Source: Psococerastis gibbosa
Lineage: Eukaryota > Arthropoda > Insecta > Psocodea > Psocidae
Assembly: GCA_963971405.1 (NCBI GenBank)
Contig: OZ020487.1
Coordinates: forward strand, 36,367,039-36,431,038
Length of the DNA: 64,000 nucleotides
Direction of reading: 5' to 3'
In this document: positions 1,021 through 56,553 of the stretch, piece by piece
Numbering within the stretch: the stretch's first letter is position 1
How the letters are laid out: the number at the start of each line of letters is the position of its first letter
Translations under genes and position numbers: made by a program
Notes under the pieces: model-generated
What the model was told of the DNA's origin: nothing
Seen by the model: only the letters and a program-made list of their open reading frames with translations
Database searches by the model: none

Positions 1021-1972
1021 CAAGCACGTAGCCAGGATTTTATTTCGGGGGGGGGGGGGGCTAACTACCCGGGGGGAGGGGGGATATGGAATACCCCCAG
1101 TAAAACGGCGGGTTCACAGTTTTAGTCAGAGGTGGTCCCAGACCTCATAAAAGGTGGAGGCACTTGTCAGTAGCGTAACGATAGGTTTTCGAAGGGGGCG
1201 GTGTATAATTTGGCGCCCCTCCACTCATTTTCATAAAAGTGTATAAAATGGGGAAAACCGTTCTCATGGACGTACGCAGCCTTTACATTAATGACGTTAG
1301 TGTCCTTTGCATGAGCCAGAGGGTTCGGAGGACACCAAGGGAGGCCCGGGGCTCTCCCTCCGGGTAAAATTTTTGAAATATTGGGGTTTGCTGAGTTTGC
1401 TCATTATATGAGCAATAAGGTTTCTACATTGCAGGAATTAATCAAATTGTGCACAAGGGGGGCCCGCGGGTCGCCCCCGGGAGAAAAAGTTTGAAAATTA
1501 GTGCTTAAATAGTGGGGTTTTACTCATTTTCTGAGCAATAAGGTTTCTATATTACAGGGAATTAATCAAATTGTGCACATGGGGGGAAAAATAGGGCTGA
1601 AATAGTGGGGTTTTACGGATTTCGAGTGCAGTTAGCACTTGGATTTTAGAGGCAAGAATATAACTGCCTTCTAAGGGGGGGGGGGGGTGGGAATGTACCG
1701 CAGTGGCGGTCGCTGCGTCCGCCTCTGGTTTTAGTGTTTTTAGAAGGAGAAAAAAATTACAGGTGAAACATTAAACTGAACAATGCAAGGATAATAAAAG
1801 TGAGACCTCTACCAAACACAGAATATTGAATGAAAAAATTTAATTTAATAATATATACAAAAAACCCACTTTACTCATTTACAATAATAATCTCTTTTTT
1901 TCTTCTTTTTTTTACATTTCGGGGGGGGGGGGGGGTTCAGCCCCCAAAGCCCCCTCCCTGGCTACGTGCCTG
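1021..1972. mobile_element. Non-autonomous hAT-like element with tandem hairpin module
   Basis: The ends are inverted repeats (CAAGCACGTAGCCAGG at the left, CCTGGCTACGTGCCTG at the right), flanked by a perfect 8-bp target duplication CCAAGTAC (1013-1020 and 1973-1980), the hAT hallmark. Long G runs lie just inside both ends. The interior carries the GC-hairpin tandem unit (about 1335-1655) and, near 1169-1215, what looks like the end of another element (CAGTAGCGTAACGAT), related to 52699-52760. No transposase frame is visible, so it depends on a partner elsewhere. Confidence 0.88.
1335..1655 (+). repeat. Tandem hairpin-module array
   Basis: Two to three diverged units about 118 bp apart. Each has a GGCCC-G-run-TC-C-run-GGG core (1341 and 1461), then an A-rich spacer, then a GGGGTTTTAC motif (about 1512 and 1606). 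The same unit recurs at 14445-14765, 21183-21455, 28440-28790, 30190-30600, 50700-51400 and 51790-52040. In the best copies the core is CCCGGGGGTCTCCCCCGGG, which can form an 8-bp hairpin with a 3-nt loop. Confidence 0.8.
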
Positions 1973-1980
1973 CCAAGTAC

Positions 1981-2816
1981 AGATACGAGTCTGGTTGGGT
2001 AGTATACTGTTATATTGTATATTATCTAAAGAAAACATAAACAAAAAGTAAAAATATTCCTTTTTGTATGAGTAAATTATATTTTCCTGTTTGTAATTTT
2101 TATTTAGCAAATATCTGCCGCCAGGTGGCGCTAAGACTCCTATTTTGCCATGGGTACAAGAAAGGGATGCCGACACCCTATTGGACCAATCTCTTCGCCA
2201 TAAGCAGTCTATATACTCCGAGTCTATGGCAATAACCTTGACGTACCTCTTTTAAAATGTGTGCTCAATTAGGGCCCAAGTAAATCGTGCACTAGGCCAA
2301 GAGACAGTCCAACATACTTCCTACTCCCAAAAACTGCAAGCTCACCCAAAAAACCTCTTCCTAGCCAAAACTATACCATCTTCGTGAACATTCTGGCCTC
2401 CACAGACGTACCATTCCAGACAATATGTAATGCTCCAGGAAAACGACTAATGTGCTCACTGGAATGCTCCGACTATCGTCGTGATCATCCCAGGCACCTT
2501 CTTAGGATTTCGTGCCTTAATTAAATTCGTTTTTTTGGGTCGATTACAGCCCTTTTTTAAATTTAATTATATTAATTTAAATAACATGTATGGAACTTCA
2601 ATAAATCATAGGACGGAGAGATAATTTGTTGTAGTAATGGCATATCACTTCATTTGTGAGGTCTCTAATACGTTATGACTAATGAGTAATATTGTTCTAT
2701 TGATGAGTCATGTTTTTTATTTTTTGTTGTATTTTTTTATTTGGTTGCTTCAATCTGTGAAGTGTGAACACACTTTTACGAGCGAGTGGAAAGGGCCATT
2801 TACGAAATACGGGAGA
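1981..2816. other. No recognised gene
   Basis: Mostly unique AT-rich sequence. It contains the right arm (2197-2230) of the inverted repeat that begins at 221. Short open frames here are not supported by any motif. Confidence 0.5.
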
Positions 2817-3110
2817 AATTAAGAGTGAACGTCCCATAGGAAATTGGCAGCCTGAAATTAAATACTTGCATAATATATGCATAATATAATAGGGAATTCT
2901 TAATGTTGGCTTTTGTAGTTTTTTTCATGGTACGAATCTACTATACGCGAAATTTCAGCCCTCAATCATTTTTATGAAAAAGCGACGATACCAAAAATTA
3001 AAAATACCCTTTCATATTATGCATGAAGTAGACTTCCACAACTTAAATAAGCCAAATCTTTAAAATCTTGCTTTGTTAATTAAATACGGTAGAAAATAAG
3101 ATGACTATAA
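2817..3110. mobile_element. Old palindromic MITE, family P, copy 1
   Basis: Collinear with the reverse complement of 24128-24530. Shared stretches include GAAATTGGCAGCC near one end, a T-rich CTTTTGTAGTTTTTTTCAT stretch and an ATTATGCATGAAGTAG segment. The ends are eroded and a short AT-rich segment replaces part of the left arm. Related to the better preserved copy at 38934-39323. Confidence 0.6.
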
Positions 3111-3353
3111 AAACAACGGATTTTGGAATACCTATTTCCAACGGGACGAACACTTTTGAGATTTGAAGTTCACAATAGATTTTGCGGGGTTTTATCATCT
3201 TCAGAAATTGATGAAAACATTAAAAAAAAAATGGTGAAACAAACATGCTGTTTGGTTCCTTAACAATATATTGCAAAGAGTACAGTGGTGCAATACAACC
3301 CATGCATTAAATTTAGGGGGGGGGGGTGGAAAATGGATTTCAGGGGGTTCATT
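3111..3353. other. No recognised gene
   Basis: AT-rich, with a G run at about 3316-3326 that may belong to a decayed DNA-transposon end. Confidence 0.4.
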
Positions 3354-3361
3354 GATTGGAT

Positions 3362-3542
3362 ACAGGCCCCGACCCAAGGGGGGGGGGGCACGGGGGCCAT
3401 GGCCCCCCTAAATTTGATAAAAAGTAATAAATAATATAAGAGTTTTAGCTAAAACTACTAAAATCACTACGGATGTACCTGTCATTTATAAAAAATTTTG
3501 TTCTTGCCCCCCCCCCAATATTAAATCCTGGTTACTGGCCTG
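3362..3542. mobile_element. Short hAT-like element, family B, copy 1
   Basis: A 181-bp element starting CAGGCCCCGACCCAAGG and ending CCTGGTTACTGGCCTG, flanked by a perfect 8-bp duplication ATTGGATA (3354-3361, 3543-3550). G and C runs lie inside the two ends. The interior matches the copy at 13633-13798. No coding capacity. Confidence 0.88.
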
Positions 3543-3550
3543 ATTGGATA

Positions 3551-4059
3551 TGATACTCATTTATTTACACGACAAAAAATCAACTTTGACATCCTTCTGG
3601 CATCATTTTTAGGAATTTTATAGCTATTATAGTCATTCATTGTCCACAGCCATGCGTCCACGCTGAAGAAATACCAGCAGGCCTACTCCACTTTTCCATT
3701 CCACATCATCCGCACAATCAACATAAAAAATAATCGATATTACTTCAACATTCCTCGGTGGTGAAGTCGAACGCATACTAACATTCCCACCGAGACCTAT
3801 TGTCTGGACGCGATGTTACAGAAAATTAATAGAACGCAAGGGTATGTCACAGCCGACGGAAGTACCCTATAATACAAAACCTGAAACCATCTATTGGGTA
3901 ACAAATTAGTGCAAGGTCGTGAAGGTCTGTTGGCCTTAATGACAGAGCTTATGACTGGTTCCCAAGCTCCTACACACGAACCCAAACAGGTACAGGTACT
4001 TACTGTTTATGATCAAAATTATTGTCTAGTTGTTGACGATTTGGACTCTTAAAGGTAAT
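3551..4059. other. No recognised gene
   Basis: Unique-looking sequence. A 62-codon antisense frame (3797-3985) has no recognisable motif. Confidence 0.4.
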
Positions 4060-4067
4060 GCGGTGAC

Positions 4068-4281
4068 CAGGGACGGATCCAGCCCATTTGGGGGGGGGGG
4101 GGTAGTTATGTGTCCAAAAAGGAAAAAGATAATATGAAAGAAAGAAAATTATCTTTATTTTCCATGTGGGCGAATTTTGGGCCTATATGTAGGATCGACT
4201 AAATCAGCAGAGCGTAATAAATTCACTTACAATAGATTTACTAAATTTAGGGGGGGGGGGGGTATCCTGTATCCGGCCTTG
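4068..4281. mobile_element. Short hAT-like element, family A
   Basis: Begins CAGGGACGGATCCAGCCC and ends with a complementary sequence (CTGTATCCGGCCTTG). G runs sit inside both ends, and the interior (GATCGACTAAAT...ACAATAGATTTACTAAATTT) is shared with 46210-46378. Flanking octamers do not match, so one end may be eroded or the host site rearranged. Confidence 0.75.
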
Positions 4282-4486
4282 ATAGGGAATCCCAAACTGC
4301 TCTTATTTTTAAACATAGATTTCTGATTTTTTATGCTTGGCTTTAGAAATTTTTTCAAGCGAGTTTTTGAGTTTTTACACTAGATATTAAAAGTTTGCTT
4401 TCATAAGACCCCTGTGTCCTCACTAGACGGTGTTTTGCCTAAAAAAGAAGTGCCATCAGCTGGAGGGATTACATGATGAATGAAAG

Positions 4487-4633
4487 TTCTGGCCATGCTT
4501 CGGAGGGCATGTAAAGGAGGCGGTCCCGGGTCTTCCTAGTTGGCTGTAAGTGAGGGCTTTATAGCCCTACCTCCGCTAGGTTGGCTTAATAATAGAACCA
4601 AAAAAGTAGTTATTTATTTCTTTATTTCTTTAA
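4487..4633 (+). mobile_element. SINE-A, 5'-truncated copy
   Basis: Carries the SINE-A body (CATGCTTCGGAGGGCATG, CCGGGTCTTCCTAGTTG, a GGGCTTTATAGCCCTA palindrome, CTCCGCTAGGTTGGCTTA) and an A/T-rich tail of TTTATT repeats. The tRNA-like head seen at 19466, 45383 and 58567 is missing, as expected from 5' truncation. Confidence 0.85.
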
Positions 4634-4639
4634 AATGGT

Positions 4640-4841
4640 AGGGCATTTGTTAAGGCATAAAAATATGGTACACACCATCATTGAGCGCGCAGTAGAAGGC
4701 CCCAACAGAAGACGGCGGTCAAAGAAGGAATTTATGATTCAAGGATGCAGGAGCTCGATCGTACGAAGTACTGACGTACAGGAACAGGAACGAGAGAACT
4801 GAAGGATGATACGCAGGGAGTTGCTGCCAACCAATCGTTGA
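4640..4841 (+). pseudogene. LINE reverse-transcriptase C-terminal tail, family E
   Basis: From 4665 the frame reads a basic stretch (RRRRSKK) and ends RELLPTNR before a stop at 4839-4841, interrupted by one internal stop. The same ending RELLPTNR occurs at the LINE remnant at 62144-62663, and its DNA also at 52815-52905. The arrangement (tryptophan/glycine/histidine region, then basic linker, then short helical tail) is that of craniofacial-development-protein-like LINE polyproteins. Non-functional fragment. Confidence 0.7.
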
Positions 4842-7043: not shown

Positions 7044-7054
7044 CAAGTAGATAT

Positions 7055-7302
7055 GAGTTGCCTATTAGCAAAAGCAATCCTGTCCACCCAGGTCGATTTT
7101 TCAGAAACCTTAAAAAACTGCTGTGCCGCAACGCCATGAGGCATAACATTACAGTTTTTAAAGCTAATTTTAACAGTATTAGAATTGCTTTTGCGTCTCA
7201 ATATCTGATTCATCGGATAGAGTATTAAAAAATAAAAGAAATGGCGCGAATGTCTCAAAACTGAAAAAAATGGAGAGGATTGCTTTTGCTAATAGGCAAC
7301 TC
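7055..7302. mobile_element. MITE with about 32-bp terminal inverted repeats
   Basis: The left end (GAGTTGCCTATTAGCAAAAG, continuing GCAATCC) is repeated in inverse at the right end (7269-7302). The element is flanked by an 11-bp direct repeat with one mismatch, CAAGTAGATAT (7044-7054) and CAAGTACATAT (7309-7319), a likely target duplication of 9-11 bp. That length would suit a Mutator-like partner, but this is inference. No coding capacity. Confidence 0.8.
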
Positions 7303-7319
7303 AATATACAAGTACATAT

Positions 7320-8720: not shown

Positions 8721-8839
8721 CTCTCCGATCATTGTTCAAGAAGAGTTTATGCGGCAATTAGTAAGTAGGTAGAGGAGACTGGATGGAAATATGTGCTATG
8801 CTATGTGCGCAGATTACGGAACGGTCTGACCGTGAGGAT

Positions 8840-9540: not shown

Positions 9541-9603
9541 GTATTGTTGCCCTCAATGTTGTCCTCTATAATTTGGTGTTAAAATGACCTTCATGTCTGA
9601 TCT

Positions 9604-9773
9604 GCAGCCTGATCGAGGCGATTATAATACCGGTATTTATTTAATCCCCTGGTATTAAAAATGTGAACAAGATAATTTTATAATGGAAAGTGCTATTCAA
9701 AATTTGTTTGTTTACAGCTATAATCCTAGGGTATTTATTTAACCCCGGTATTATAATCGCCTCGATGAGGCTG
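9604..9773. mobile_element. Palindromic MITE, family M1, copy 2
   Basis: A 170-bp copy of the element at 571-741 in opposite orientation. The left 30 bases match the consensus end; the right end has one mismatch (GATGAGG for GATCAGG). The interior shared with copy 1 includes the TTTATAATGGAAAGTGC stretch. Confidence 0.85.
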
Positions 9774-9959
9774 CAGGTAGGTACATACTTACTATTTACT
9801 TGGCTCCCACGGATTTGGTAGTAGAGGTACGTAGAGTTTAACCTAGCCTATATGGAACACCGTTTGGGTGTGATCTCTAAATTACCCATATATTTTTAGC
9901 GTTCTTCTATAAAACACCTCAATCATCTGAAGGGGTATAATAATGCAGCTTGTTAGGAT

Positions 9960-10166: not shown

Positions 10167-10169
10167 ACT

Positions 10170-12615: not shown

Positions 12616-13157
12616 CAGAGGCGTACAGTTATAGAATGATGGCGGGGGCAAAACTAAGTAGACCTTATGACGTCATCAGGCAGGATAGTAGTAGTATGGT
12701 TTGACACAGTCCCAGGCCACGGTGTGGGCCCATAGGACTCCAGTGGACCTCCTGATTATAGTGGATTCCGAACCACTTGGGAAACACAGTGAAGTCACAC
12801 GATTAGTTCGGAGGTGACCAGGACAAGTCCTACCATGTTTCCCTACCGGCACTGTGCACACGACCAAGTTGTCTGCAGCTTTGAACCTGCTCTGGTCCGC
12901 TGGATTCAACTTGGTATGGCGGCCGGCATCAGGCAGGATAAAGAAAAATTGAAAATATATTTTTTATATTTATACGCATATTAATAGTAGTAAAGTATAG
13001 CTGTAGATTTTACAAAGCTAACACAGGAATGCTTATATTCATATTGCTGCAAAGGGGCCAGGGGTCTCCATGAACCACGTCTTACAATGCTCGAGGGGCG
13101 AGGCTGGGCGGGGGGCAAGTTGGACCGTGCCCCCCCCCCCCGCAACTTTACGCCCTG
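12616..13157. mobile_element. hAT-like element, family C, copy 2, interrupted by a SINE
   Basis: The ends are CAGAGGCGTACAGTT and AACTTTACGCCCTG, with target duplication GACCAACG/GACCAATG (12608-12615 and 13158-13165, 7 of 8). The outer parts match 56302-56553. A SINE-C copy (12688-12926) sits inside, flanked by duplicated element sequence. The interior has a degenerate hairpin-module unit (13050-13075) and a C run near the right end. Confidence 0.87.
12688..12926 (-). mobile_element. SINE-C, copy 1, nested in a hAT element
   Basis: Flanked by a perfect 14-bp target duplication CATCAGGCAGGATA (12674-12687 and 12927-12940), typical of LINE-mediated insertion. On the minus strand it begins CGGCCGCCATACCAAGTTG and ends in a TAC-rich tail. 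Highly similar to 49343-49626. A 77-codon antisense frame crosses it and recurs in the other copies only because the repeat does. Confidence 0.88.
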
Positions 13158-13165: not shown

Positions 13166-13624
13166 TACTCTAATACAATACTGTAAGAATGGGCGGACAG
13201 ACAGACATTTTGTTTTTGAGTGCCTGGGACCTCAATACTTGTAAATCTGTAATCACTGTAATCTCGAACTTAAAAATTTCGGCCACCACAAAACTTTCCA
13301 TGCAGTGAAAACTAACGTGTAAATAGGAAACCAAAATAGTGCATAGGTAGCATACGGTTAATCACAGTTTTTGTGGGCATTAAATTGAGAAATTTGACTT
13401 TGTACAAAAATTATCCAGTGATGGATTCAGTGCCAGGTTTGGCTATGGGGCCAGGAGAGTCATGGCCCCAGGGCCCCCACAAATGAGGGGCCCCACAAAA
13501 AAAAGGCCTACAAAAAAGGACCCCACATAAAACTGAAAATACAAAAATTAAAAAAACTAAAGCAAATAAATATACTTGTCAAAATATTTGGCGGGAAACT
13601 GGAACTGGCTCCGATGATTAATTG
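13166..13624. other. No gene; GGCCCC-rich stretch at 13435-13510
   Basis: Contains a segment with several GGGGCC/GGCCCC motifs that may be a decayed DNA-transposon end, and near 13290-13340 a short repeat (TAAATAGGAAA context) also seen near 25720 and 56220. Confidence 0.35.
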
Positions 13625-13632
13625 CAATACTC

Positions 13633-13798
13633 CAGGCCATGCCCCCCCCCCTAAATTTGATTAAAAAAAATAATAAATAATGTAAGAGTTGTCGCTAAAA
13701 AAAATACTAAAATCAAGACGGATGTACTTTTCATTTTTAAGAAAAATTGTTCTTGCCCCCCCCCCCCCGAAAAAAATTAAATCCTGGGTACGGGCCTG
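13633..13798. mobile_element. Short hAT-like element, family B, copy 2
   Basis: Begins CAGGCCATGCC with a C run and ends CCTGGGTACGGGCCTG. Target duplication CAATACTC/CAGTACTC (13625-13632, 13799-13806, 7 of 8). The interior (TGTAAGAGTTGTCGCTAAA, GACGGATGTAC) matches 3362-3542. Confidence 0.85.
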
Positions 13799-13806
13799 CA
13801 GTACTC

Positions 13807-14429
13807 TATTTTGCATCCCGAGTCTCTATTCTATAAATGATAGTGGCATATTTGTGTAAGGGTGTAAGACTTTTTTGCCGGAGAAAGGGCACCCACACAA
13901 TTCCGACCGAGGGCGCCCCCCCCCCCCAAGGCCAAACCAGGCACTGGATGGATTGCCCCTTAAGAAAAGAAATGATCTCCAGCATCTCCCCTCGTCTGGA
14001 TTCATCCATGCGACCATGCATTGCTGGAGCATTTTATTAACAAGCTACTAATTTATTCCTAAAATGCGTGCAGGATTCATATTCCCATGACAGACGTTGC
14101 TCATTCAAGTTAAATGAGAGACCCGCGACTAATACTAATCATCCATCGATGGACAATAAGGCATCAATCGTTAAAAAAAGAGTAATTAATACCTGAGCCA
14201 TTAGTGCTATGAGTTATGAGTCTGTTTTGAAGGTATGTTGCTGTTGCAAAACATTAAACAACCTACCATGTTCTGCGCACTTTTTTTGTGTAGCTGGAAA
14301 ACAAAACGCAAACGTGGTTCGATTCCATATGAAAGAGCAAGTCTGCAATAACTTTTATGGCTTTATACAAGCAGCGCATATAGCCAGCTTGATGCTATGA
14401 TATAATATATATATGATATAAGTGTTACT
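13807..14429. other. No recognised gene; C run at 13914-13927
   Basis: A C run near 13914 may mark an old transposon end. A 63-codon forward frame (14209-14400) has cysteines but no recognisable pattern. Confidence 0.35.
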
Positions 14430-14444
14430 GCACTCAAAATGCGT

Positions 14445-14800
14445 AAAACCCCACTATTTCAGTCCTATTTTTCAAACATTTTCTCCCGGGGGAGACCTCC
14501 GGTCCCCCTGTTCACAATTATATTAAGTACTTGTAATTTATATACCTTATTCTTCTCAAAATGAATAGAACCCCAATATTTCAGCCCTAGTTTTCAAGAT
14601 TTTTCACACCGGGGGAGACCCCCGGGCCCCCTCGTTTGCAATTATACTAATTGCCTGTAAACTCTCAAAGTTACTCCTATCAAAATGCGTAAAATCAAAC
14701 TATTTTAGGTTTGTTTTCGCTAAACTTCTCCCCCGTGGGAGACCCCCGGGTCACTGTCAGGTGCCTCCCCCTTATATGAGGTCTGGGACCGCCTCTGGAT
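14445..14800 (-). repeat. Tandem hairpin-module array, antisense
   Basis: Three units of about 120 bp with cores at 14481-14508, 14608-14631 and 14729-14752, each with CCCGGGGGAGACC-type sequence. The minus strand carries the GGGGTTTTACGCATTTT motif. The flank GAGGTCTGGGACCGCCTCTGG (14781-14801) matches, in inverse, the segment at 1125-1165 upstream of the first array. So this is part of a related larger element, although I did not find its ends. Confidence 0.75.
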
Positions 14801-19465: not shown

Positions 19466-19690
19466 GCATGTAGAGTAGCGGTACGGACTCTGACTTTCAC
19501 CCGAAAGGTTGTTGGTTTGTTGCACTTCCTACATTTTCTGGCCATGCTTCGGAGGGCATGTAAAGCAGGCGGTCCCGGGTCTTCCTAGTTGAGTGTAAGA
19601 GAGGGCTTTATAGCCCTAACTCCGCTAGGTTCGCTTAGTAATAGAACAAAAAAAGTCAAAATTTATTTATTTATATTTATTTATTTATTT
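19466..19690 (+). mobile_element. SINE-A, full-length copy
   Basis: Starts GCATGTAGAGTAGCGGTACG (A-box-like), then ACTTTCACCCGAAAGGTTG and a decayed B box. The conserved body follows, then a (TTTA)n tail. With 45383 and 58567 it defines the full length at about 225 bp. Confidence 0.88.
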
Positions 19691-21182: not shown

Positions 21183-21455
21183 CAGGCGCGGATCTAGGAT
21201 GAGACCAAGGAGGGGGCTAAGATTAAATTTCGATTTTTTTTTTTTTAAATAGGGCTAAAATATTGGGGTTTTACGAATTTTCAGAGCAATAAGGGTTTCA
21301 TATTATAGGTAATTAATACAAGCGAGCACAAGGGGGGCCCGGGGGTCACCCCCGGGAGAAAATTTGTGAAAAATAGGACTGAAATAGTGGGGTTTTACGC
21401 ATTTTGAGGACCCTAATGTAGATGTAGATGTAGATGTAGGGTAGATCCGCGCCTG
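21183..21455. mobile_element. hAT-like element, family D, with hairpin module
   Basis: The ends are CAGGCGCGGATCTA and its exact complement, flanked by a perfect duplication ATTATACC (21175-21182, 21456-21463). The interior holds about two module units, one complete core at about 21330-21355, and a (GATGTA)n microsatellite next to the right end. No coding capacity. Confidence 0.9.
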
Positions 21456-21814
21456 ATTATACCTACAGTTTAGTGCGTGCAGACTGCAGCCCAAGAATTA
21501 GCTCTTTCTTTTCGAAAAGCCCTGTAGCTAATTGCTAAATTATCTTGAATCTTCCATAGATCACAAGAATCGGTACGAGTGACCGCGTACAAGCTTTCCT
21601 GTTTTTGTATAGGTACTGTAATAAGTTCATAGTTAAATCTCGGCTGCCCACACATTTTCCCTATCCAAAAGCTCTGGATTGATCAACAGGACAATTGGAT
21701 AATCTAGACTTAATATAAATATCTATATAGAATACTATAAGTTAATACAACACAATAATAACGGTCTTGTATGGAATGCATTGAGCTCGGATAATCCATT
21801 ACATCTTACACTGG

Positions 21815-21966
21815 CTACATTTTCTGGCCATGCTTCGGAGGGCATGTAAAGCAGGCGGTCCCGGGCCTTCCTAGTTGAGTGTAAGAGAGGGCTTTATAGC
21901 CCTAACTCCGCTAGGTTGGCTTAGTAATAGAAACAATAAAAAGCCCTTATTTATTTATTTATCTTC
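21815..21966 (+). mobile_element. SINE-A, 5'-truncated copy
   Basis: Begins at CTACATTTTCTGGCCATGC, carries the complete conserved body and ends in TTATTTATTTAT. Lacks the tRNA-like head. Confidence 0.85.
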
Positions 21967-26647: not shown

Positions 26648-26790
26648 TATCCACGCTTCGGAGAGCATGTAAAGCAGACGGTCCCGGGCCTTCCTAGTTG
26701 AGTGTATGAGAGGGCTTTATGCTTTATAGTCCTAACTCCTCTAGTTTGGCTTAGTAATAGAACAAAAAGTCTTCATTTATTATTTCTCTG
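26648..26790 (+). mobile_element. SINE-A, 5'-truncated copy
   Basis: Body begins CCACGCTTCGGAGAGCATG. An 8-base duplication (GCTTTATGCTTTATAG) disturbs the central palindrome. T-rich tail. Confidence 0.82.
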
Positions 26791-28373
26791 ATTTTCCTTT
26801 ATGGGCCTTCTAGAGGCTACCCACAAAGTTTTACCTAGATACACTCCTATTGTTGTTCCATGATAAAATAATAAAATCATATATGACTTGTCTTTAATTT
26901 TATTAAGTAGAATCACACATAGATAAGCATTGAGAAAACTGCACTCTTATTTTACCAGTCTTAATTTATGTTAACTTTAAGCCATTCATTTACGGTCATT
27001 CGGGTGAATGGTCAGGTTCAAAATTAGTTTTCCTCCCCAAAATAAAATCTTAGTGTGTGTGTTTGTGAGGGGGGGGGGGGGGGAATTGCTCAACGACCCT
27101 GCCTTATGTCTATTTTCCAATGACCAATTCTCCATGCCATTCATTATAATTTGTAAATTCAGGTCAGCTGTGAGTTCAGCCATTAGCATATCATATGTTA
27201 CATACTGCATGAATAGTATGATAAACTGTACCTAAACGTCTGCAAGAATTATTACGAGTTTCTCGTTTACTTTCAGAGTCAATTTCGATACTCAAATAAC
27301 GTTCAGTTTCTCTATGAAGAAGTAGTCATGTCCATAAAAGTTGTACTGCCCGCTTAAGGACATAACAGACATCACTTTACTTCATAAAAATTACTTCTCA
27401 ATCAGTTTATTGTGAGGTGGTAGCAGTCCCCCTTAGGCCGTAACTGAGACAGTTCAGGCTCTCGCCAGCTAACAACTTATCTGCATATAACTCAGTTCAG
27501 CTCATCATTCTAATAGGTTCGTTCGGGTTAGTGAAACAAGCGGGATGCACGCGGTCAAAGTGTTGTATCTCATCTGCGAGATTAACGAAGTAGACGCAGG
27601 CGCCATTGCCTTGTATAAAATGTTGAAGTGACTCTGCTAGAGACGGAATCATTATGGGCATGGACTGGAGCGCCGATAGGGGATCGCAAATATAGAGAAA
27701 GCAAGAAGATGACTTGAACAGCGTGGGAATACTGCAATATAATGGTCATATTTCTACACAGAAGAAAATAAATGAAGAGAAGACTAATTAGCTTCGCACA
27801 GATAATGGAGCTTGTGTGCCAAACTTGAGTTTTATATGAAACAGATAAAAAGGAAACTACAGAAAGTTTAATTTATCTAAATGTTTGGTGATTATAAGAG
27901 TAACTAACTATGTTGTAGGCTCTTGGAGGAGATTTGATAGACAGGCAGATAAAAAAAAAGCCCTATAATGTTACCAAGTGAAACTTCAACCGAGAAAATT
28001 GAAGTATGCAACCAGTTATTATATGAATCACCTAAAACCCCCGACCAAAATGCCCCTGTGCCCCCCGTCGTTATTGAGCAAGGGAATGCTAAGAAGACCC
28101 ATGATACTTATACTTATGGACTTTGTACTGTTTACCCAACGAAGAAATGAGCGCGAAGTGGGCAGTACCCCAGTTCAGGGGGGCCCAGTTTTGAAAAAGT
28201 CTGGGGGGGGGGGGCAAATGGGAGAGGGAGACCCCCCCCCCCAAATATGAAGGAAATTGTACTGTTGGATTTACCTCCTGAGGAAACTTTGTTTTAGTAT
28301 TTTTAACTATGCAACACGTTAGACTCTTGTACGCCTCGTCCATACTAAGTTGCTGCCTTTAAAAAAGCTAAAA
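26791..28373. other. No gene; G run at 27069-27083, G/C tracts at 28170-28245
   Basis: Mostly unique. 28170-28245 (GGGGGGCCCAG, AAAAAGTCTGGGGGG, C run) resembles 29255-29345 and is probably decayed transposon. Short frames near 27968-28250 run into these tracts and are not credible. Confidence 0.35.
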
Positions 28374-28381
28374 CAAAAAGC

Positions 28382-28993
28382 CATTGGCATAAATGCCCAA
28401 AATTTCTGGGGAAGGGGGGACTTTAGGACTACAAAACTTTGATCCGCCGGAGAAAAAAAATAAACAGACCCAAATTAGAGAGGTTTTACGCATATTATAC
28501 CCTAGGACAAGGGGGGCCCGGGGGTCTCCCCCACAGAAAAAAAATTGATAAACCGGCCCAAATTAGTGAGGTTTTACGCATATTATACCCTGGAGGATGG
28601 GGGTCCGGGGGTCTCCCTCGGAGATAAAAATTGATAAATGGGCCCAAATTAGTGAGGTTTTACGCATTTTGCAAGCAGTACAGTTGAGACTTGAGATTTT
28701 ACGGACGAATAAACCTACCGCAGAGGGGGGCCCGGGGGTCTCCCCCGAAGAAAACATTTGAAAAAATAGGTCTCAAATAATGGGGTTGTAAGCATTTTTA
28801 ATAATATATTTTTGTGAAAGTATACTTGGTCAATATGATGCATGAATTAGCATGAATTAATTTCCCTTTTGTTAATGAGGATACTATGCGTTTCGTTTTC
28901 GCCTTCTATAACATTTATGTCACCACAAATCTTTAGGGGAGGGGAGAACTACGGGTGCCCCTGGGGCCCCAGGACCCCCAATATACGCCAATG
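28382..28993. mobile_element. hAT-like element, family E, copy 1, with module array
   Basis: The ends are CATTGGCATAAATGCCC and TACGCCAATG. Target duplication CAAAAAGC/AAAAAAGC (28374-28381, 28994-29001, 7 of 8). The interior has three hairpin cores (28511-28532, 28599-28620, 28724-28747), each followed by an A-run and a GAGGTTTTACGCAT or GGGGTTGTAAGCAT motif, then a unique right part shared with 50660-51586. No transposase. Confidence 0.87.
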
Positions 28994-29001
28994 AAAAAAG
29001 C

Positions 29002-29467
29002 GTATTTGAATTAACTTCTTAAAGAATTTAGAATGAGAACCTAGTGTAGTACAATTATTAAAAATTAAAAATAAATCATCAATAACTTGTCACAATATTT
29101 TGAATCATAGCTCCAGCTCCATGTCGATCAACGCACTGACGTTTAGTTTATGCATTCGTTCACAAAGTTTTTCAAGTTTAAGTTTCGTACTGAATGTTTA
29201 TACTAACGTCAAAATGGAAATGCCCAGAAAAAGCAATGGGAATCGGTAGGCTTTAAGCCCCCCCACGAAAAAGTCTGGGGGGGGGGGCAAAAAGTTCCGT
29301 GCCCCCCCCCCCCCCCGTAGTGGGCCCCCCTGCCCCATTTGCAGCGATACAATTAGCAGTTGAACATTATTTTATGCTATGTTATTGAATTACTGTTATG
29401 CCGTGTAAGATCTCAATTTATTTAAAAAGTTAAAGTGTATGACTGTTTATGACTTGTATAAATATAA
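29002..29467. other. No gene; G/C tracts at 29265-29330
   Basis: The tract region resembles 28170-28245, presumably remains of one element family. Otherwise unique. Confidence 0.35.
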
Positions 29468-29752: not shown

Positions 29753-30103
29753 CATTTTGTAACCAACTCGACCAGTCAAACCCCTAAGGGGGTTTTTGGT
29801 ACCCAAAAATTGTATGCCTATAAGTTATTGTATTTTTGTAATATATGCTCCTAGTCCTAGTCAAGGGAGTACTGGAAAATTATTATTAAAAAATAAAATT
29901 CCATTACAAAAAAAATTTTAAGTAAAAATCGTTGAAATATTTATTTTTGATATTTTTTTTTCATTCAGAACTATATTGACAGCGTACTTACATTTTTAAA
30001 TTAGGGAAGTTAATTAACGTGAAATAACTAATGTTCCAGTAGCTATCACAGTGTCATGATCCGAGTCACCTGTTGATGTAGTAGTATGTACGCGTATTTA
30101 ATG

Positions 30104-30759
30104 TTATTTTTCCATGCATGGATGCAGCTCATAAAGCAAACTGTATGGTAACATGAATATGTCTTCCATGTTTAAATTATAAATTTTTCTGTTGTAAAAA
30201 TCGTAAAACCCCACCATTTTGAACTTATAATTTCCCCCGCGGGAGACCCCCGGGCCCCCTGCTTCCAGCAATATGAATAAGCATTTCAGCATTCCTCTGT
30301 AAGCCCCCCTATTTCCAGCAATTTGAATAAGCTAAAAATTCTAAACTTTCCTGCTGTTAAAATACGCAAAACCCCACTATTTTGTACTTATATTTTTACA
30401 TTTTTCCTTCGGGGCAGACCACTGGGTCCTCCTATTTCCAGCAATTTGAACATGCATTCAAACATTCCTTTGTAAGCAATTTGAATAAGCTAAAAAATTC
30501 AAAACTTTACTGCTGTTAAAATGCTTAAAACCCCACTCTTTTGGCCTTATATTTTCAAATTTTTCCTCGGGGGGAGACCCCCCATTGGTACTCACATATC
30601 TCACTTTTTCAAGTAATGCACTGCAAATTAATGTGCTTTGTTTCGCTAACAAACACACCAATTGCATAATCACTAAAAATGAATTTGGCTTGGTAGGCTG
30701 CACCCACTTTTCCCGGAATGGCCCCCTCCGAAAATCTGTCCTGGACCCACCCATGATTT
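30104..30759. mobile_element. Possible hAT-like element with antisense module array
   Basis: Three antisense hairpin-module units occupy 30190-30600 (cores 30236-30263, 30412-30432, 30560-30580). The right part ends CCTGGACCCACCCATG, and ATTTAATG follows; the same octamer occurs at 30096-30103. The left edge lacks a clear complementary end, so the boundaries are tentative. Confidence 0.45.
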
Positions 30760-30767
30760 AATGAATG

Positions 30768-46209: not shown

Positions 46210-46378
46210 CAGGGACGGATACAGCCCATTTTGGGGGGGGGGGGGGGTAGCTGAGGGTCAAAATAGGAAAAACATATGTAGGATCGACTAAATTAGAGCG
46301 TAATAACTTAATTTACAATAGATTTACCAAATTTGGGGGGGGGGCACCTACCCCCCTACCCCCCTGTATCCGTCCTTG
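46210..46378. mobile_element. Short hAT-like element, family A, best copy
   Basis: A 169-bp element with ends CAGGGACGGATACAGCCC and CTGTATCCGTCCTTG and a perfect target duplication GTTACGGC (46202-46209, 46379-46386). G runs of about 15 and 9 and C runs lie inside the ends. Defines the family also seen at 4068, 35562 and 62221. Confidence 0.92.
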
Positions 46379-47600: not shown

Positions 47601-47716
47601 TTTATATATAATATAAAAATATATGTATAATAAAATGGCATTTGAAATTAAGTATTTTTTTATATCTTTTTTTATTTTCCCTATTTTGTTCAATTCTTTT
47701 AGTTTAAGTGAAATTT

Positions 47717-48385: not shown

Positions 48386-48479
48386 GAGCTGAGAGAATAC
48401 TCTCATTTTTTTTTAAATAATTGTTCAGCATCTGACTACTTCCATACCTTTGCGGCCGTGGAACGAGAAATTAGTTAAT

Positions 48480-49342: not shown

Positions 49343-49626
49343 AAGTAGTAAGTAGTGTTCGTCGGGTTAATAATGACTTAGGCCTCATATTTGGGTCCAT
49401 AGAGCGACCCCGACTTGACTGTCCTATGCCAGCCCGTAGGACAGTGGACCTCCTGATTATAGTGGATTCCGAACCACTTGGGAAACACAGTGAAGTCACA
49501 CGATTAGTTCGGAGGTGACCTGGACAAGTCCTACCATGTTTCCCTACCGGCACTGTGCACACGACCAAGTTATCTGCAGCTTTGAACCTGCTCTGGTCCG
49601 ATGGATTGAACTTGGTATGGCGGCCG
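49343..49626 (-). mobile_element. SINE-C, copy 2, full length
   Basis: Flanked by a perfect 14-bp duplication TTATAGTGGCCCAT (49329-49342, 49627-49640). On the minus strand it starts CGGCCGCCATACCAAGTTC, includes AGTGGTTCGGAATCCACTAT, and ends in a TACTTACTACTT tail. Longer at its 3' side than copy 1. A 103-codon antisense frame spans it but is shared with the other copies only by descent of the repeat. Confidence 0.9.
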
Positions 49627-49640
49627 TTATAGTGGCCCAT

Positions 49641-50215: not shown

Positions 50216-50374
50216 AGGAGCTTCTACATGTGCTTTTGGAAGCCACAGATGAACTAAAAATATAGGTAGTTTTACTAAAAACCCTAAATATAATCCCATT
50301 AAAAAAAAAAAATTTATATATAATTTATTGTATATTAAAAAATAAAAACTAAACGTAAATATATACTTATACAA
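50216..50374 (-). pseudogene. nad4: NUMT: nuclear copy of a mitochondrial nad4 fragment
   Basis: The minus strand encodes [21 protein letters not shown], the highly conserved core of NADH dehydrogenase subunit 4, preceded by a Phe/Tyr/Leu-rich membrane segment in the correct order. ATA codons fit methionine in the invertebrate mitochondrial code. Homology stops abruptly at 50216, where the usual V-S-G-S-M-I-L sequence should follow and unrelated sequence takes over. About 50 codons survive, so it is a dead insertion of mitochondrial DNA. Confidence 0.85.
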
Positions 50375-50659
50375 ATAAAAAAGAAATGATTTTTAATGTG
50401 TTACAGGAATCAATGGACTATATTATTGTTAAGTACTCTCCATAGTCATCCAAAACAATAGATTTAACTGAATAATGGCAAGGTGCGACGAATTCCCATT
50501 TTGGCGCCAACCCCTAACCAGTAGCGTAAATAACTTTTACTGCGCCCCCCGCAAGACCTTTGGTGCGCCCTACCCTGTCTTATTATTTCATCTTTGTTAT
50601 GAGTGATTGTCAATAGTGGAATGCTAGGCCGTAGTCACGGTTTTTTTTTGGGGTGGCTG

Positions 50660-51586
50660 TACTGGCGTAAATTCCCAAAATTTCTGGGGGGGGGGGGGCT
50701 TTAGGACCCATGACCTTGAACCCCCGGAGAAAAAATCTATAAATGGGCCCAAATTAGTGAGGTTTTACGCATATTATACTCTGGAGAAAGGGAGCCTGGG
50801 GGTCCACCCCTCGGAGAAAAAAATTGATAATTAGGCCCAAATTAGTGTGGGGTTTCACCCATATTCTAACCTGGAGAAAGGGGGGCCCGGGGGTCTCCCC
50901 CGGAGAAAAAAAATTTATGGATAGGCCCAAATTAGGGAGGTTTTACGCATTTTGCAAACAGTTGAGATTTTATAGACGGATAAACTTACCACTGAGGGGG
51001 GCCCGGGGGTCTCCCCCGAAGAAAAAATTTGAAAAAATCGTCTGAAATATTAGGGTTTTAAGGATTTTATGTAATATATTTTTGTGAAAGTACTCGGTCA
51101 ATATGTTGATTTTTTTCATTATGTCTTTTTGTGAAATAAGCATACCAAGAATTAATTTACCTTTCGTTTTTGTGGATACTATGCCTCCATAACGTCTTTG
51201 TCACCAGAATTCCTGGGGAGGGGGGGGGGGCAGGACCCCCTATACACGCCAATGTTTGCAAGCAGTACAATTGAGATAATTATTATAACGACGAACAAAC
51301 CTACCATTGAGGGGGCCCGGGGGTCTCCCCCGCAGAAAAATTTTGAAAAAATACCTCTGAAGTATTGGGGTTTTAAGCATTTTGAGTAATATATTTTGTG
51401 TGAAAGTACTTGGTCAATATGTTGATTTGTTTCATGTAAAATAAGCATACTAAGAATTAATTTCCCTTTCATTATTGTGGATACTATATGCCTTTAGCCT
51501 CCATAATGTCTTTGTCACCAGAAATCGTGGGGGGGGGCTACGGGTGGACCTGGGGAGGCTGAGCCCCCCCCCCTATTTCGCCAATG
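50660..51586. mobile_element. hAT-like element, family E, copy 2, nested
   Basis: Starts TACTGGCGTAAATTCCC and ends TATTTCGCCAATG. Perfect duplication GGTGGCTG (50652-50659, 51587-51594). Module cores at 50790-50814, 50880-50903, 50994-51019 and 51310-51332. An internal CACGCCAATG at 51246-51255 shows that the right part is duplicated within the element (about 51256-51586 repeats 50970-51255). Confidence 0.87.
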
Positions 51587-51789
51587 GGTGGCTGTGATCC
51601 TATCAAGTGTATTCTTAAGAGGTTATGCTGTTTTTATGGTGTTACTCTTAAGCTATATATGATAGCATAGGTACATAAAATGTACCTATTTTAGTGGGGA
51701 CACAGCCAGACACATTTTGTAGATATGCGGATTAAATCGTTATGTTACCATTACGACAGCTTAGATTTTATAGAAATATTATTGCACGT

Positions 51790-52040
51790 AATCCAAAGAG
51801 GGGGCCCGGGAGTCTCACCCAGGGAAAAAAATTGAAAATATAAGTGCAATCCAGTGGGGTGTTACGCATTTTAACAGCAGTAAAGTCTAGATTTTTACAA
51901 AACTTACAAATGAATGCTTATTCATATTTCAGCAAACAGGGGGCCTCACCCGGAGGAAAATTTTGTAAAAATAGGCCCGAAAAAGTGGGGTTTTGCGATT
52001 TTAACAGCAGTAAAGCTTATAATTTACAGAGGAAGACATA
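51790..52040 (+). repeat. Hairpin-module array inside the 50519 element
   Basis: Two units, with GGGCCCGGGAGTCTCACCCA (51801) and GGGGGCCTCACCCGGAGG (about 51940-51957), followed by GTTACGCATTTTAACAGCAG and GGTTTTGCGATTTTAACAGC. This variant has AATGCTTATTCATATTTCAG spacers, as in the family-C elements and at 30190-30600. Confidence 0.8.
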
Positions 52041-52476
52041 TTCCTGTTACTGTACTAGATGCATTTAATTCTCAACTTTTCATTTCGGTGGGGGGGGGGG
52101 GGCTGCAGCCCAATAAGCCCCCCTTGCCTACGTTCTTGGTGGAATGGGAAGAAAAATTTTGAAGAATAAATAATAACATAGTAATGGAAAACGCACCAGC
52201 CGCTGTCTGGTTTTGCTGGTACCTAGTGCATTCTGCTGCCACTGGTGAACCGCAGTACTGGCGAGAAAGGAAATTTTTAGTTTTAAATGAGATGAAGTTC
52301 CTAATTTCATAATTATAGTCAACTTGGAAAACAAATTGATATTTATAATTTTTATTAATTACGTAGATTTCTAAATTATCTTATTATTTCTTGGAACCGA
52401 AGTGCGCCCCCAGCAATGCTGCGCCCCCCCGCGCCGCGGGGGTTGCGGGGGTGTTATTTACGCCACTGCCCCTAAC

Positions 52477-52814
52477 CTCCTCGTCAGAGGAGGGATACAA
52501 GATGCATTTTTAAATGCTACTATATTAAGACGTGCCTACGTGTGGATATTTCGCCGAAGACTATTAGAAACAGGTTATATTGTTTGTTTGAGCGCAATTT
52601 TCTTATAATTACTCGTAAGTCTATTTTTTCTGTCAAATGCAGTTTTATAGTCGAGTTTAGGCTAACTTGGAAAACGGGTTAGTAGGTTTCTCATAGACAT
52701 TAGCGTAACGATGGGGGGGGGGGACGATCCGCCACCTCGCATTGGGGCGCCAAGTTGGAGAAAAATAATAACATGCATTATTCTATACCGTAACAAAAAA
52801 TACACCATAAAACC
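52477..52814. other. No gene; hAT-like end at 52695-52760
   Basis: CATTAGCGTAACGATGGGG with a G run, then TTGGGGCGCC, resembles 1169-1215. No partner end found. Confidence 0.35.
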
Positions 52815-53030
52815 AATTAAACCGAGATAGCTGGAGGATGATATGCAGGGGGTTGCTGCCAACCAATCGTTCATATTGGGACCACAGAAGAAGAATAGAT
52901 GTTCGAGTGAACAGTGAGTGGTTTACTGGTTTGGTTGGTAGAATTCCAGATCATCTCAGTAAGAAGTTAATAGCCATATTGTCTTGACCCTCCTCCGAAA
53001 ATACCTTTTATTTATGCCACTCCATTGCAG
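52815..53030 (+). pseudogene. LINE family E, 3' terminal remnant
   Basis: GATAGCTGGAGGATGATATG, CAGGG.GTTGCTGCCAACCA, ATCGTT repeats the end of the family-E reverse transcriptase at 62600-62647. The following 3' UTR (GGTAGAATTC..., TTAATAGCC..., TATGCCACTCC) parallels 62890-62972. Confidence 0.65.
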
Positions 53031-54381
53031 GACCAGGGGAAGTTTCCGCCATTCACAAACATGGATGTGCTCCAAGACTTGGACAGAGAGGTGTTGACGG
53101 ATGTGGTCAGCTTCCTGGAGAGTATCGGACAAAAGTGGTAGGACGTTGGGCAAGCTGTTTTAGACGGTCCCTGGGCAACCTCGTTGTCCAGTGAACTCCC
53201 GATAGCAGTTTTTGTCAGATGGATTTGGTAATGGCTGTATACACCCTTAAGCCAAAAAAAAAGAAAAAAAAAATATGCCACTCGTTCAAGCCTAGGTGGT
53301 GGTGGTGGTGGTGCAATAGTAGGGGTCTTCACAGTGTTCGTGTTATCGAGTTATACCTAGTTAAGTGTGTTATATCAAGTTAAGTTAACACACCGATAAC
53401 CCGATAGCCAAGCTAACCAGCATGCTATCCTAAACGCACTTCCAAGTTGGTTAACTTGATTGATTTGAAACACGCGTTTAAAATTTTGTAGTATTTAAAT
53501 TTATTTGCATAATCTATTATCACTAGCAATTACCGTACATACTTCAAATTATAATAACCAAAGTGAACAAAAAATATAAACAAATGTGGCACTAGAATTG
53601 AGTCCTGCTCTCTTTAAACCCGTGCCACGAAAGTCTAACTACTAACACGCTGTATACTCTGTTAAATATTTTCGATATGGCATGATAACTCACTCCCGAG
53701 GTCCACTCACGATTGTGCGTGTTAACTTGGATAGCACATCTAACTCGATATCACCAATACCGTGAATACCCCTACTGGCTGTAGCACGTAGAATGCAGAA
53801 ACTTAAAAACAATCACATAGCACTGTATTCCAGTGACTGTTTTACTATTTTTAGCTAAAGAAAATAGCTAATTATCATAATTAATAGCAACGTTAACCTA
53901 CGTCCCATGTCCTTTTCAAGCCTGCCTTGAAGGCGATTTTCATACGACCTGGAAAATTCACGTCACGATTTTTTGTTGGAGTCAATTTAGGTCATGTCCT
54001 ATAGAAATAACAATACATGGGAGAAAAAAAACATTAGCAGATTCCTTATGTCCGTAGCGTATGTTCCATATGTATTATGTATAAGATCTCATAGGGAGCC
54101 CTGTGACGGGGTGTATCATACATATGCATCGTGCGAGCCACGCATTCGCATTTGCTTTGCCGGTAATGGTTAGGTTTCTTTGTTTTCCTCCAAATGGATA
54201 CCAACATAGTAGGCAGTGGAATTTATCTGTTTTCGAAATCTAACTAGTTAGCATCTTCATCACATATGTTTTTCCTGATTTGTTACTGATTGCTTATACT
54301 ATAAGACGGGTGCACCTGGTTATAGCGGTAGCATTCCTTTTAGAAACTGATGGCAAATTGCAACAATGTTGAAATACATGC
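53031..54381. other. No gene; (GGT)n at 53292-53313
   Basis: Unique-looking. Contains a GGT microsatellite. The antisense proline run it encodes is not a gene. Confidence 0.35.
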
Positions 54382-54784
54382 ATACCAACCAGCATAAATA
54401 ATTAGATTACTCGTGACTTCGTGGTATTTCATTTTAATAAACAAAAAATATAAAAAACTTAGAGTTTTAGAAAAACTTGTTATAGCAATCCGAATTAGTA
54501 AAACCCAAATAATCGTTAAGAAATTAACTTTGTCTAAGAAACCCACTTGTGTTAGTATAAAACCCTGAGCGCTTTCGGTAAAAACTGCCATCTACAAAGG
54601 GAAACCCACTAGCACAGTTACACCTTATCTGCGATTTGAGACTTGCTCAACTCGAGGAGAAGATGCAAATGTTTGGACAAAGTTAATTTCTTAACGATTA
54701 TTTGGGTTTTACTAATTCGGGTTGTTATAACAAGTTTTTCTAAAACTCTAAGTTTTTGTTATTTTTTGTTTAAATACCAACCAG
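54382..54784. mobile_element. Fold-back element, about 97-bp arms, 11-bp direct flanks
   Basis: Arms at about 54436-54534 and 54676-54772 are complementary with few mismatches and are separated by 141 bp. The direct repeat ATACCAACCAG occurs at 54382-54392 and 54774-54784 and may be a target duplication. The same hydrophobic peptide (NFLTIIWVLLIR, TSFSKTLSF) is read from both strands purely because the arms mirror each other. Confidence 0.75.
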
Positions 54785-55109
54785 GTAAGTATCAAGCAAT
54801 TCTATCCGAACTACCCCAACACATTGTATATGGTAGGGTGCGACTAGCACACATATGCAAAGTAATTTTTAATTCGAAGAATCATGAGACTGCGCAACAA
54901 AGATAATTATTCTTGAAATATCGGATACTGTATTTATAGTAGTATATATTCAATAGGCCTATGTAGTATAGGCTATATTTAATATGTCCTATTAAAAAAT
55001 AATAATACTGGCAACGGTTTTTGTATGGGGGGGGGGGGGGGGTCCAATTTTCAATTTTTTTTAAAGGTATTTTATTAATGAAAGTAGATGTTTAATTAAT
55101 TAAGTAGGT

Positions 55110-55442
55110 TTGTGGAAGATAATGTGTAAGTAAAGTATTAAAATCAAACAAATTTGCACAATTTCGACATAAACATATATATTGTTAAAAGTTAAAAAAT
55201 TAAAAATCGGTTACAGCTGTTTTTTTTTTTTTTTTTTTTTTTTTTGAAAGACTCGCACAAGTGCAAGCACGTTACCACCTGCCCATCGAAGTCGATTCGG
55301 TGTTACACCATCATCAGACTCAACACCGAAACAGCTGTAACTGATTTTTAATTTTTTAACTTTTAACAATATATATGTTTATGTGGAAATTGTGCAAATT
55401 TGTTTGATTTTAATACTTTCCACATTATATTTCGTTTCCACG
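55110..55442. mobile_element. Fold-back element with SINE-B fragment in the loop
   Basis: Arms 55132-55219 and 55332-55419 are near-perfect inverted repeats (AATCAAACAAATTTGCACAA and complement), and weaker complementarity extends outward. The loop has a T run of about 27 and, at 55244-55293, the antisense head of SINE-B (CAAGTGCAAGCACGTTACCA). The outer CGAAGTCACGAG (55440-55451) matches in inverse 54415-54426 beside the other fold-back. Confidence 0.75.
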
Positions 55443-55451
55443 AAGTCACGA

Positions 55452-55779
55452 GAGAATATATTATATATATTATATAATATATTGGATTTGTGGAAGATGA
55501 CTTTTTAATGTACTTACGGACGGATAATAGGCAGGTCTCTTACTTGTGACGGTGCAGCCGTTCCCTCGCTTGGTACTGGTCGCGGTTCTTCTTGAATATA
55601 TATTACTAGTTGACGATCCAAAATTGATAAAAGGGAAAAATATAAAACACTGGATGCAGATATAAAGAAAAGTCAGGTCAGTACGGACTTGAAAGTTAGA
55701 AGAAATAGTTTTAACATAGGTGGCGCACGAGTCGCTAACAAATGATAGGATTGGCGCCAATATTTAAATTGCGACTAGA
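55452..55779. other. No recognised gene
   Basis: AT-rich; antisense frame at 55470-55760 without motif. Confidence 0.3.
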
Positions 55780-55928
55780 AAGTCCCTTATATCCAGAGTT
55801 CAAATTCAAATAAATTTATACCAATTCTTCAAACAATACAGATTTACATAAAATGATACATTGTATCCCTAAAATATGTAATTCGGGGGGGGGGGGGGTG
55901 GACCCCTTAGCCACCTCCCTGGGCAACA
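55780..55928 (-). mobile_element. hAT-like element, family H, truncated copy
   Basis: Reverse-complement match to 41010-41130 (AAATTTATACCAATTCTTCA, AACAATACAG). Ends CCTCCCTGGGCAACAG at the right, preceded by a G run. The other end is missing. Confidence 0.6.
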
Positions 55929-56293
55929 GAAATATTTGATTGTCATTAATAACGACTACAAAACATGTGAATGTAAAGAAAATAGTTGGAGCCGTTTTTG
56001 AGAATTTTTTTTTTAGCTTTTGGAGGATAAAACCCCCAGAAATGTTAGCCCAAAATAAAAATAAAAATGGTCCCGAGGCATGATTTTTGTGAACTGACAT
56101 CCAAATCCACCGAGTAGTTTGCCCACAAATTGACGGACCGACAAAACTCAAATCGTGTAACTCCACTGAAATAACGAAATTGAAAATATTGGCCATCACA
56201 AAGCTTTCCTTATACTAACATACGATATAAATAGGAAAGCAATGATGACAATTTTCTTTCTTTCTGTTGGTACAAGAGCCAAAATAGTTTCCA
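55929..56293. other. No supportable gene
   Basis: A 127-codon antisense frame (55816-56199) overlaps the truncated hAT copy, and its distal end is encoded by that G run. No motif supports it. A short repeat at 56200-56240 resembles 25700-25750. Confidence 0.3.
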
Positions 56294-56301
56294 ACTGTAA
56301 C

Positions 56302-56553
56302 CAGAGGCGTAAAGTTATAGAATGATGGCGGGGGCAAAACTATGTAGACATGACATCATCAGGCAGGATTTAAGGAAAAATTGAAAATATAAGAGCAAAA
56401 TAGTAGGGTTTTACGCATTTTAATAGTTGTAAAGTATAACTGTAGATTTTACAAAGTTAAAAAAGGAATGCTTATATTGATATTGCTGCAAACGGGACCA
56501 TGAAGTATATGAGCCACGTCTTACACTGCTCGAGGCTCAACTTTACGCCCCTG
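56302..56553. mobile_element. hAT-like element, family C, copy 1
   Basis: The ends are CAGAGGCGTAAAGTT and AACTTTACGCCCCTG. Perfect duplication ACTGTAAC (56294-56301, 56554-56561). Carries one module unit (TAGTAGGGTTTTACGCATTT; hairpin core degenerate). Uninterrupted relative of 12616-13157. Confidence 0.92.

Follow-up and report, generated by a model that had tools for sequence, protein, structure and literature searches.

Repeated elements were analyzed in a 64,000-nucleotide stretch of the genome of the insect Psococerastis gibbosa (Psocodea, Psocidae; GenBank assembly GCA_963971405.1, contig OZ020487.1, forward-strand positions 36,367,039 to 36,431,038), hereafter the window. Judged by their sequence, the elements appear to be short, non-autonomous and of hAT type, with short CA..TG ends and 8-bp target-site duplications (TSDs), in a repeat-rich genome. 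Several of them carry in their interior a tandem array of one common unit, and similar arrays are found between different ends: one array lineage (I) is seen under the F1 and F2 ends, another (III) under the E1-type ends of the element Amid and under the F5 ends (element names as in Table 1). The homology of interiors and spacers, the chance level of most end comparisons between families and the fact that ends of equal divergence would still be recognizable together argue that interiors have changed ends. The array has probably moved between end types at least twice, through capture by nested insertion followed by deletion and remobilization.

Array lineages and element ends

The unit consists of a GC-rich hairpin, an A-run, a tail GTGGGGTTTTACGCATTTT and a spacer. 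With up to 3 mismatches allowed, the tail is matched 20 times in the window, where 100 shuffles average 0.07, and an iterated profile, seeded with a consensus typed by eye, recovered 24 units (E-values from 1.6e-21 to 4.4e-06), which confirms the common internal unit described in the earlier note. Eight elements hold 23 of the 24 units, with one to five units each, all in one orientation within any given element; the last is a decayed copy at 61440. The previous listing lacked two minus-strand arrays, 14437-14752 and 30197-30582. A decayed half unit of F5a was missed by the profile and was put into the unit alignment by hand.

The cross-comparison of 14 element sequences, with nested inserts masked, and a tree of 24 units (one short F2 unit excluded, the F5a half unit included) suggest three array lineages: I (F1 and F2), II (F3) and III (Amid, F5, F6 and perhaps X). 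After correction for nesting, five TSD-supported end types bear units: lineage I is found under two of them, and lineage III under two clear end types plus two arrays without clear ends. Interiors of elements with different ends are 72-82% similar overall: 82% over 162 bp of array for F1b and F2, with collinear unit order, 77% over 121 bp for Amid and F5b, and 72% over 247 bp for Amid and F6. F3 and F5 are present in two copies each, alike in ends and interior (F3a and F3b: 81% over 463 bp, again collinear; F5a and F5b: 80% over 179 bp and 90% over 60 bp). In the unit tree an F2 unit stands beside an F1 unit (84/79), an Amid unit is paired with an F6 unit (86/89), and the last unit of F3, a lineage II element, groups with lineage I (86/86).

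Similarity across end types extends to the spacers, which are identical at 42/51 positions for F1a-F2, 34/50 for F1b-F2 and 53/64 for Amid-F5b. As percentages from gapped alignments flatter (shuffled spacers reach up to 0.73 with many gaps), it is the alignment scores that bear the argument: 57.5, 34.5 and 62 respectively, compared to shuffled means of 3.2, 5.3 and 7.4. A 60/63 spacer match between Amid and F6 was set aside for its 39 gap columns.

The ends behave differently from these interiors. Among 20 end comparisons, the three within families and the two between Amid and E1 were reached by none of 400 shuffles, whereas 12 of the 15 cross-family comparisons were at chance (59 or more of 400 shuffles as good). 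Three exceptions concern the right ends of F5 and G (2/400), the right ends of Amid and F5 (18/400) and the left ends of F5 and G (23/400). Copies within a family score 35-46 and the Amid and E1 ends 15 and 32. Comparing F1 with F2 gave scores of 7 and 7 for left ends and 6 for right ends, against shuffled means of 5.9-6.8; for Amid and F5 the left ends scored 5, at chance, and the right ends 9. Nine ends were then simulated, the 35-bp Amid left end and the F1a right end being left out: at 82% identity the first percentile of scores was 12-26, and at 77% identity it was 8-20, with medians of 22-36. Ends diverged as far as the interiors would thus have stayed recognizable. These results support the suggestion of the earlier note that the interior had moved between end types.

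The same note had offered another explanation, in which one ancestral family lets its ends drift gradually around a slowly evolving, constrained core. All ends are indeed broadly of the form CA..GCG or CA..CGTA, units are collinear in F3a/F3b and in F1b/F2, and cores are more conserved than spacers. Gradual drift is nevertheless at odds with F1 and F2 ends that are at chance despite a clearly homologous inter-unit spacer, and with simulated ends of equal divergence that remain recognizable; ends diverging in step with their interiors are not what we observed, and we regard this explanation as very improbable. A constrained core explains less than a change of ends, the spacers beside the core being homologous too; what stands of it is that the core is somewhat more conserved.

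Nesting and target-site duplications

Table 1. Elements, unit arrays and one duplication junction in the window (TIR, terminal inverted repeat)
Feature	Positions	Strand	Ends	TSD	TIR	Units and remarks
E1, outer hAT-like element	1021..1972	+	CAAGCACGTAGCCAGG / CAGGCACGTAGCCAGG	CCAAGTAC, both sides	15/16	no own unit; host of F1a
F1a, nested in E1	1127..1727	+	CAGAGGTGG / CAGAGGCGG	GTTTTAGT	12/16	lineage I; 1340-1384 (3' part lost), 1458-1529, 1586-1622 (hairpin lost)
F5a	12616..13157	+	CAGAGGCGTACAG	GACCAACG/GACCAATG, 1 mismatch (by eye)		decayed half unit and hairpin remnant
F1b, second F1 copy	14424..14797	-	right end truncated			lineage I; 14437-14508, 14559-14631, 14683-14752
F2	21183..21455	+	CAGGCGCGGATC	ATTATACC	14/16	lineage I; 21247-21279 (no hairpin), 21333-21404
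Probable outer element around F3a	28176..29332	+	CAGGGGGGCCCA	1 mismatch	13/16	no own unit
F3a	28382..28993	+	CATTGGCATAAA / CATTGGCGTATA	CAAAAAGC/AAAAAAGC, 1 mismatch	11/16	lineage II; four, at 28444, 28512, 28599, 28726
F6 region (stretch compared, not element borders)	29880..30760	-	one candidate end, CATGGGTGGGTCC, ~30755			lineage III; 30197-30259, 30360-30429, 30519-30582
G, outermost element	50519..52468	+	CAGTAGCGTAAATAAC / CAGTGGCGTAAATAAC	CCCCTAAC	15/16	no own unit
Amid, nested in G, E1-type ends	50624..52138	+	CTAGGCCGTAGTCACG / CAAGAACGTAGGCAAG	GTGGAATG	11/16	lineage III; 51800-51871, 51937-52002
F3b, nested in Amid	50660..51586	+		GGTGGCTG, both sides (by eye)	8/16 (by eye)	lineage II, homology to F3a; five, at 50721, 50790, 50881, 50997, 51311; last unit and tail duplicated
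Duplication junction in F3b	51241..51271	+				right terminus ACGCCAATG runs into TTTGCAAGCAG
F5b	56302..56553	+	CAGAGGCGTAAAG / CAGGGGCGTAAAG	ACTGTAAC	14/16	lineage III; one half unit, 56376-56420
X, decayed array remnant (stretch compared)	61260..61620	+				61440-61497; profile E=3.1e-08

An 8-bp TSD and short terminal inverted repeats (TIRs) beginning with CA are features of hAT elements. The TSDs are perfect in E1, F1a, F2, G, F5b, Amid and F3b, with one mismatch in F3a and F5a; the TIRs reach 12-15/16 in E1, F1a, F2, G and F5b, 11/16 in Amid and F3a and about 8/16 in F3b. Two left termini are off pattern, Amid beginning with CT and F3b with TA. A strict scan for perfect 8-bp TSDs, C..G termini and TIRs of at least 12/16 gave 8 elements in the window, compared to a mean of 0.02 and a maximum of 1 in 100 order-3 Markov sequences; with TIRs of at least 11/16, which takes in Amid, it gave 10 against 0.33. 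A foldback-like inverted repeat contains one of these eight (55157-55394). A loose scan (11/16 TIR, one TSD mismatch allowed, any terminal base) gave 19 against 12-27 in 12 order-2 Markov sequences, i.e. chance level. Its rows were used only alongside other support, and 28382-28993, 28176-29332 and 12616-13157 therefore rest on homology or nesting, not on the scan.

The left 45 bp of F1b are 88.9% identical to F1a (score 35, compared to 6.7 in shuffles), and no TSD was found for F1b, F6 or X. Whole-window TSD/TIR scans gave no TIR pair for F6; a perfect 8-bp repeat ATTTAATG lies around its array (30096-30763), one side adjoining the CATGGGTGGGTCC end and the other without a matching end, and this pair is one of 20 near-repeats when about 15 are expected.

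Four nested pairs, named here by their left coordinates, were identified: 1021/1127, 50519/50624, 50624/50660 and, less securely, 28176/28382. Three have perfect 8-bp TSDs at both levels and the fourth has one mismatch at each. Because of this nesting, the list of unit-bearing end types in the earlier note was right only in part: the elements at 21183, 28382, 50660 and 56302 own units, those at 1021 and 50519 merely host the nested elements that own them, and the one at 12616 owns a decayed half unit only. The ends CAAGCACGTAGCC and CAGTAGCGTAAA were thereby ruled out as unit carriers. Could nesting explain everything, each array being owned by one end family and all other end types being mere hosts? 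It does so for two of the seven coordinates of that list, 1021 and 50519. Elsewhere, no further TSD/TIR pair separating the array from the ends turned up in whole-window scans for F1, F2, F3, Amid or F5 (a finer look covered F1a, F1b, Amid, F6 and X only), and the two copies of F3 and of F5 each keep like ends around a like interior, so that we consider such an explanation distinctly improbable.

Other repeats were observed in the window. F5a carries a retroposon-like insert at 12674-12940, with the 14-bp direct repeat CATCAGGCAGGATA on either side (12674-12687 and 12927-12940); the same site without the insert is seen in F5b at about 56357-56370, and a 98% copy of part of the insert is present at 49442-49626. 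The insert reads as a young retroposon-like element. Two more hAT-like elements, which lack units, lie at 13428-13946 (perfect TSD GATGGATT) and 46210-46378 (perfect TSD GTTACGGC). There are also long inverted repeats of 95-98% complementarity, at 54438-54772 and 55132-55419 (both foldback-like) and at 567-743 with 9602-9778. A dispersed family (D3/D4), mostly 84-99% alike and retroposon-like by look, occupies 4471-4605, 19520-19654, 21806-21940, 26651-26720 and 58626-58760. The window looks non-coding: it holds 12 stop-to-stop open reading frames of at least 110 amino acids, the longest of 140, and no transposase was found, the Pfam search having covered 10 of these 12 frames without a match and shorter or broken frames not being searched. 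The only Rfam match is a tRNA-Thr (63417-63489).

Proposed route of transfer and possible constraint on the unit

Most simply, the array is a passenger. A unit-bearing element would insert into an unrelated element, its own ends would be lost by deletion, and the composite would then be mobilized by the outer ends. The window displays the nesting, a similarity that ceases to be detectable on the way from the array to the ends, and E1-type ends both without an array of their own (E1) and with one (Amid); the deletions, the remobilization and their order are what we infer from these.

Arrays have probably also grown by recombination or template switching, of which F3b offers one visible event. 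Its last unit and tail are duplicated, the two tails being identical at 272/302 positions. At the joint, placed at a short shared stretch, the right terminus runs into TTTGCAAGCAG, which is the sequence found after the ACGCAT of unit 3 in F3a and, with one change, in F3b. By this joint the internal TTTTACGC counts as an end-like site, at any rate where recombination is concerned.

Several observations weigh against a passenger array that changed ends. This 64-kb sample yielded nothing intermediate between nested pairs and finished chimeras. A search for flanking duplications was at about chance (4 pairs against 1.9 for the inner part of F1a, 11 against 9.9 for the Amid array), so that buried insertion is unproven. 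The TIRs of Amid and F3b are poor, and the F2 ends are not tied to the E1 type (59/400 shuffles as good on the left, 218/400 on the right). Support in the unit tree is modest, with stars on just 4 of the 21 inner branches, and lineage III, which forms no supported clade there, rests on unit and spacer similarity. Finally, cores are more conserved than spacers: matched pairs from different end types are 81-95% identical in the core and 68-83% in the spacer, and within a lineage the multiple alignment gives 0.73 for cores and 0.49 for the following 45 bases. Constraint would give this pattern and a pure passenger would not predict it, with the caveat that units were gathered with a core profile and that spacer columns align poorly. 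Both comparisons tell against the view that spacers are as conserved as cores. Candidate target duplications buried inside F1a, F1b, Amid, F6 and X were rejected, being at about chance.

Constraint on the core is thus possible, and the array could be a functional cassette, whose internal end-like transposase sites (GCGTAAA, reversed as TTTTACGC in the unit) would aid hAT-type transposases on elements with variable ends. The core excess is in line with this, and conservation within the unit, taken in 7-base windows, peaks at GGTCTCC (hairpin) and at GGTTTTA/TACGCAT (tail). GCGTAAA is common to the F3b left, F5b and G ends, and the F3b duplication joined terminus to unit at ACGC; GCGTAAA is lacking, however, in the F1, F2 and E1/Amid ends. 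Short subterminal motifs can be bound by hAT transposases, as reported for Herves (PMC3143072). The statistical likeness of unit to ends is weak: the F3b left end matched the reversed unit over 20 bases with 12/1000 shuffles as good, and the F3a left end had 36/1000, these being the best of 10 tests uncorrected for multiplicity, and in the other eight at least 54/1000 shuffles were as good. Covariation does not uphold the hairpin either. In balance, a cassette of this kind seems rather unlikely.

The stem covariation score of the hairpin was equalled by 141/500 shuffles. Its retention as a structure was rejected, with 77.8% of cells paired compared to 76.2% in shuffles (70/500 as high), and DNA folding of six units gave z values between -2.26 and 1.26: a single unit fell below -2, and five folded no more stably than shuffles. 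According to the profile table, late starts occur in eight units (positions 4, 7, 9, 17, 18, 27, 36 and 39), and one unit ends more than a few bases early (45); the idea of the hairpin as a breakpoint hotspot is suggestive only, since starts past about 40 were probably missed by the search. A bolder reading would combine these features into a portable transposition cassette, whose end-like sites and break-prone hairpin allow its capture by hAT-type elements with unrelated ends and help to mobilize them, the interior being the lineage that persists; we judge it unlikely.

Core identity averages 0.724 over 27 unit pairs within elements, 0.734 over 56 pairs taken from different elements of the same lineage, and 0.661 over 210 pairs that span two lineages. 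The first two values indicate no concerted evolution of units within elements, a possibility which had been raised before, and the arrays are older than the element copies.

Comparison with known systems

It is common practice to name repeat families after their ends. Should interiors change ends, a classification based on ends would break one lineage up into many and lump unrelated ones together, and the window offers a small, TSD-resolved case in which nested stages are visible. We found no description of the unit in the literature searched, where no search on its letters was made. A 17-base piece of the unit matches two viral contigs, whose surroundings (500 and 437 bases, inspected by eye) show no further likeness to it; the hairpin pattern matched no viral contig and a 21-base piece no prokaryotic genome contig.

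Published systems share some of these features. The earlier note took it as normal for non-autonomous families to have ends rather than interiors in common; the CMITE families of Acropora corals are a published exception, with different TIRs around one conserved interior, one member in which TIR family and interior disagree, and a new element made by insertion of one into another (PMC2872659). Families with different TIRs, a common interior, tandem arrays and insertion of one element into another are found in both systems, and here too the internal region is more conserved between families than the TIRs. Coral CMITEs are a direct precedent for a shared interior under different ends. They differ in being of piggyBac type, about 100 bp long, with TTAA TSDs, CC[C/T]T ends and arrays of whole elements (PMC2872659). 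Here the TSDs are of 8 bp, the ends are C(A/T), and tandem hairpin units lie inside the element.

Helentrons and HINE are not known to make a target-site duplication, unlike the elements of the window with their 8-bp TSDs. The Cg_HINE Helentrons of the oyster resemble our elements in combining flanking modules with internal satellite-like tandem repeats, but there a repeat cluster keeps its flank pair and related flanks may bear different repeats (PMC7492417). In the molluscan satellite phBglII400, 13 of 16 abrupt junctions map to a 12-bp palindrome, and truncated units here similarly tend to begin in the hairpin or A-run; those are satellite arrays, not hAT-type elements, and junction clustering was tested there and is only described here (PMC5139131). 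The Tetris foldback element is also non-autonomous with internal tandem repeats, and its end portions are common to another miniature inverted-repeat transposable element (MITE); its repeats lie in the terminal inverted repeats, while ours are interior and in one orientation (PMC4079207), and no tandem repeats in long terminal inverted repeats, as in foldback elements, were found in the unit-bearing elements. MER6 with its V domain likewise shows an internal domain of one element class carried by another, in that case a short interspersed nuclear element domain in a mariner-derived MITE (PMC6887750). What sets the present case apart from these precedents is its hAT-type ends, with a tandem hairpin array as the shared interior.

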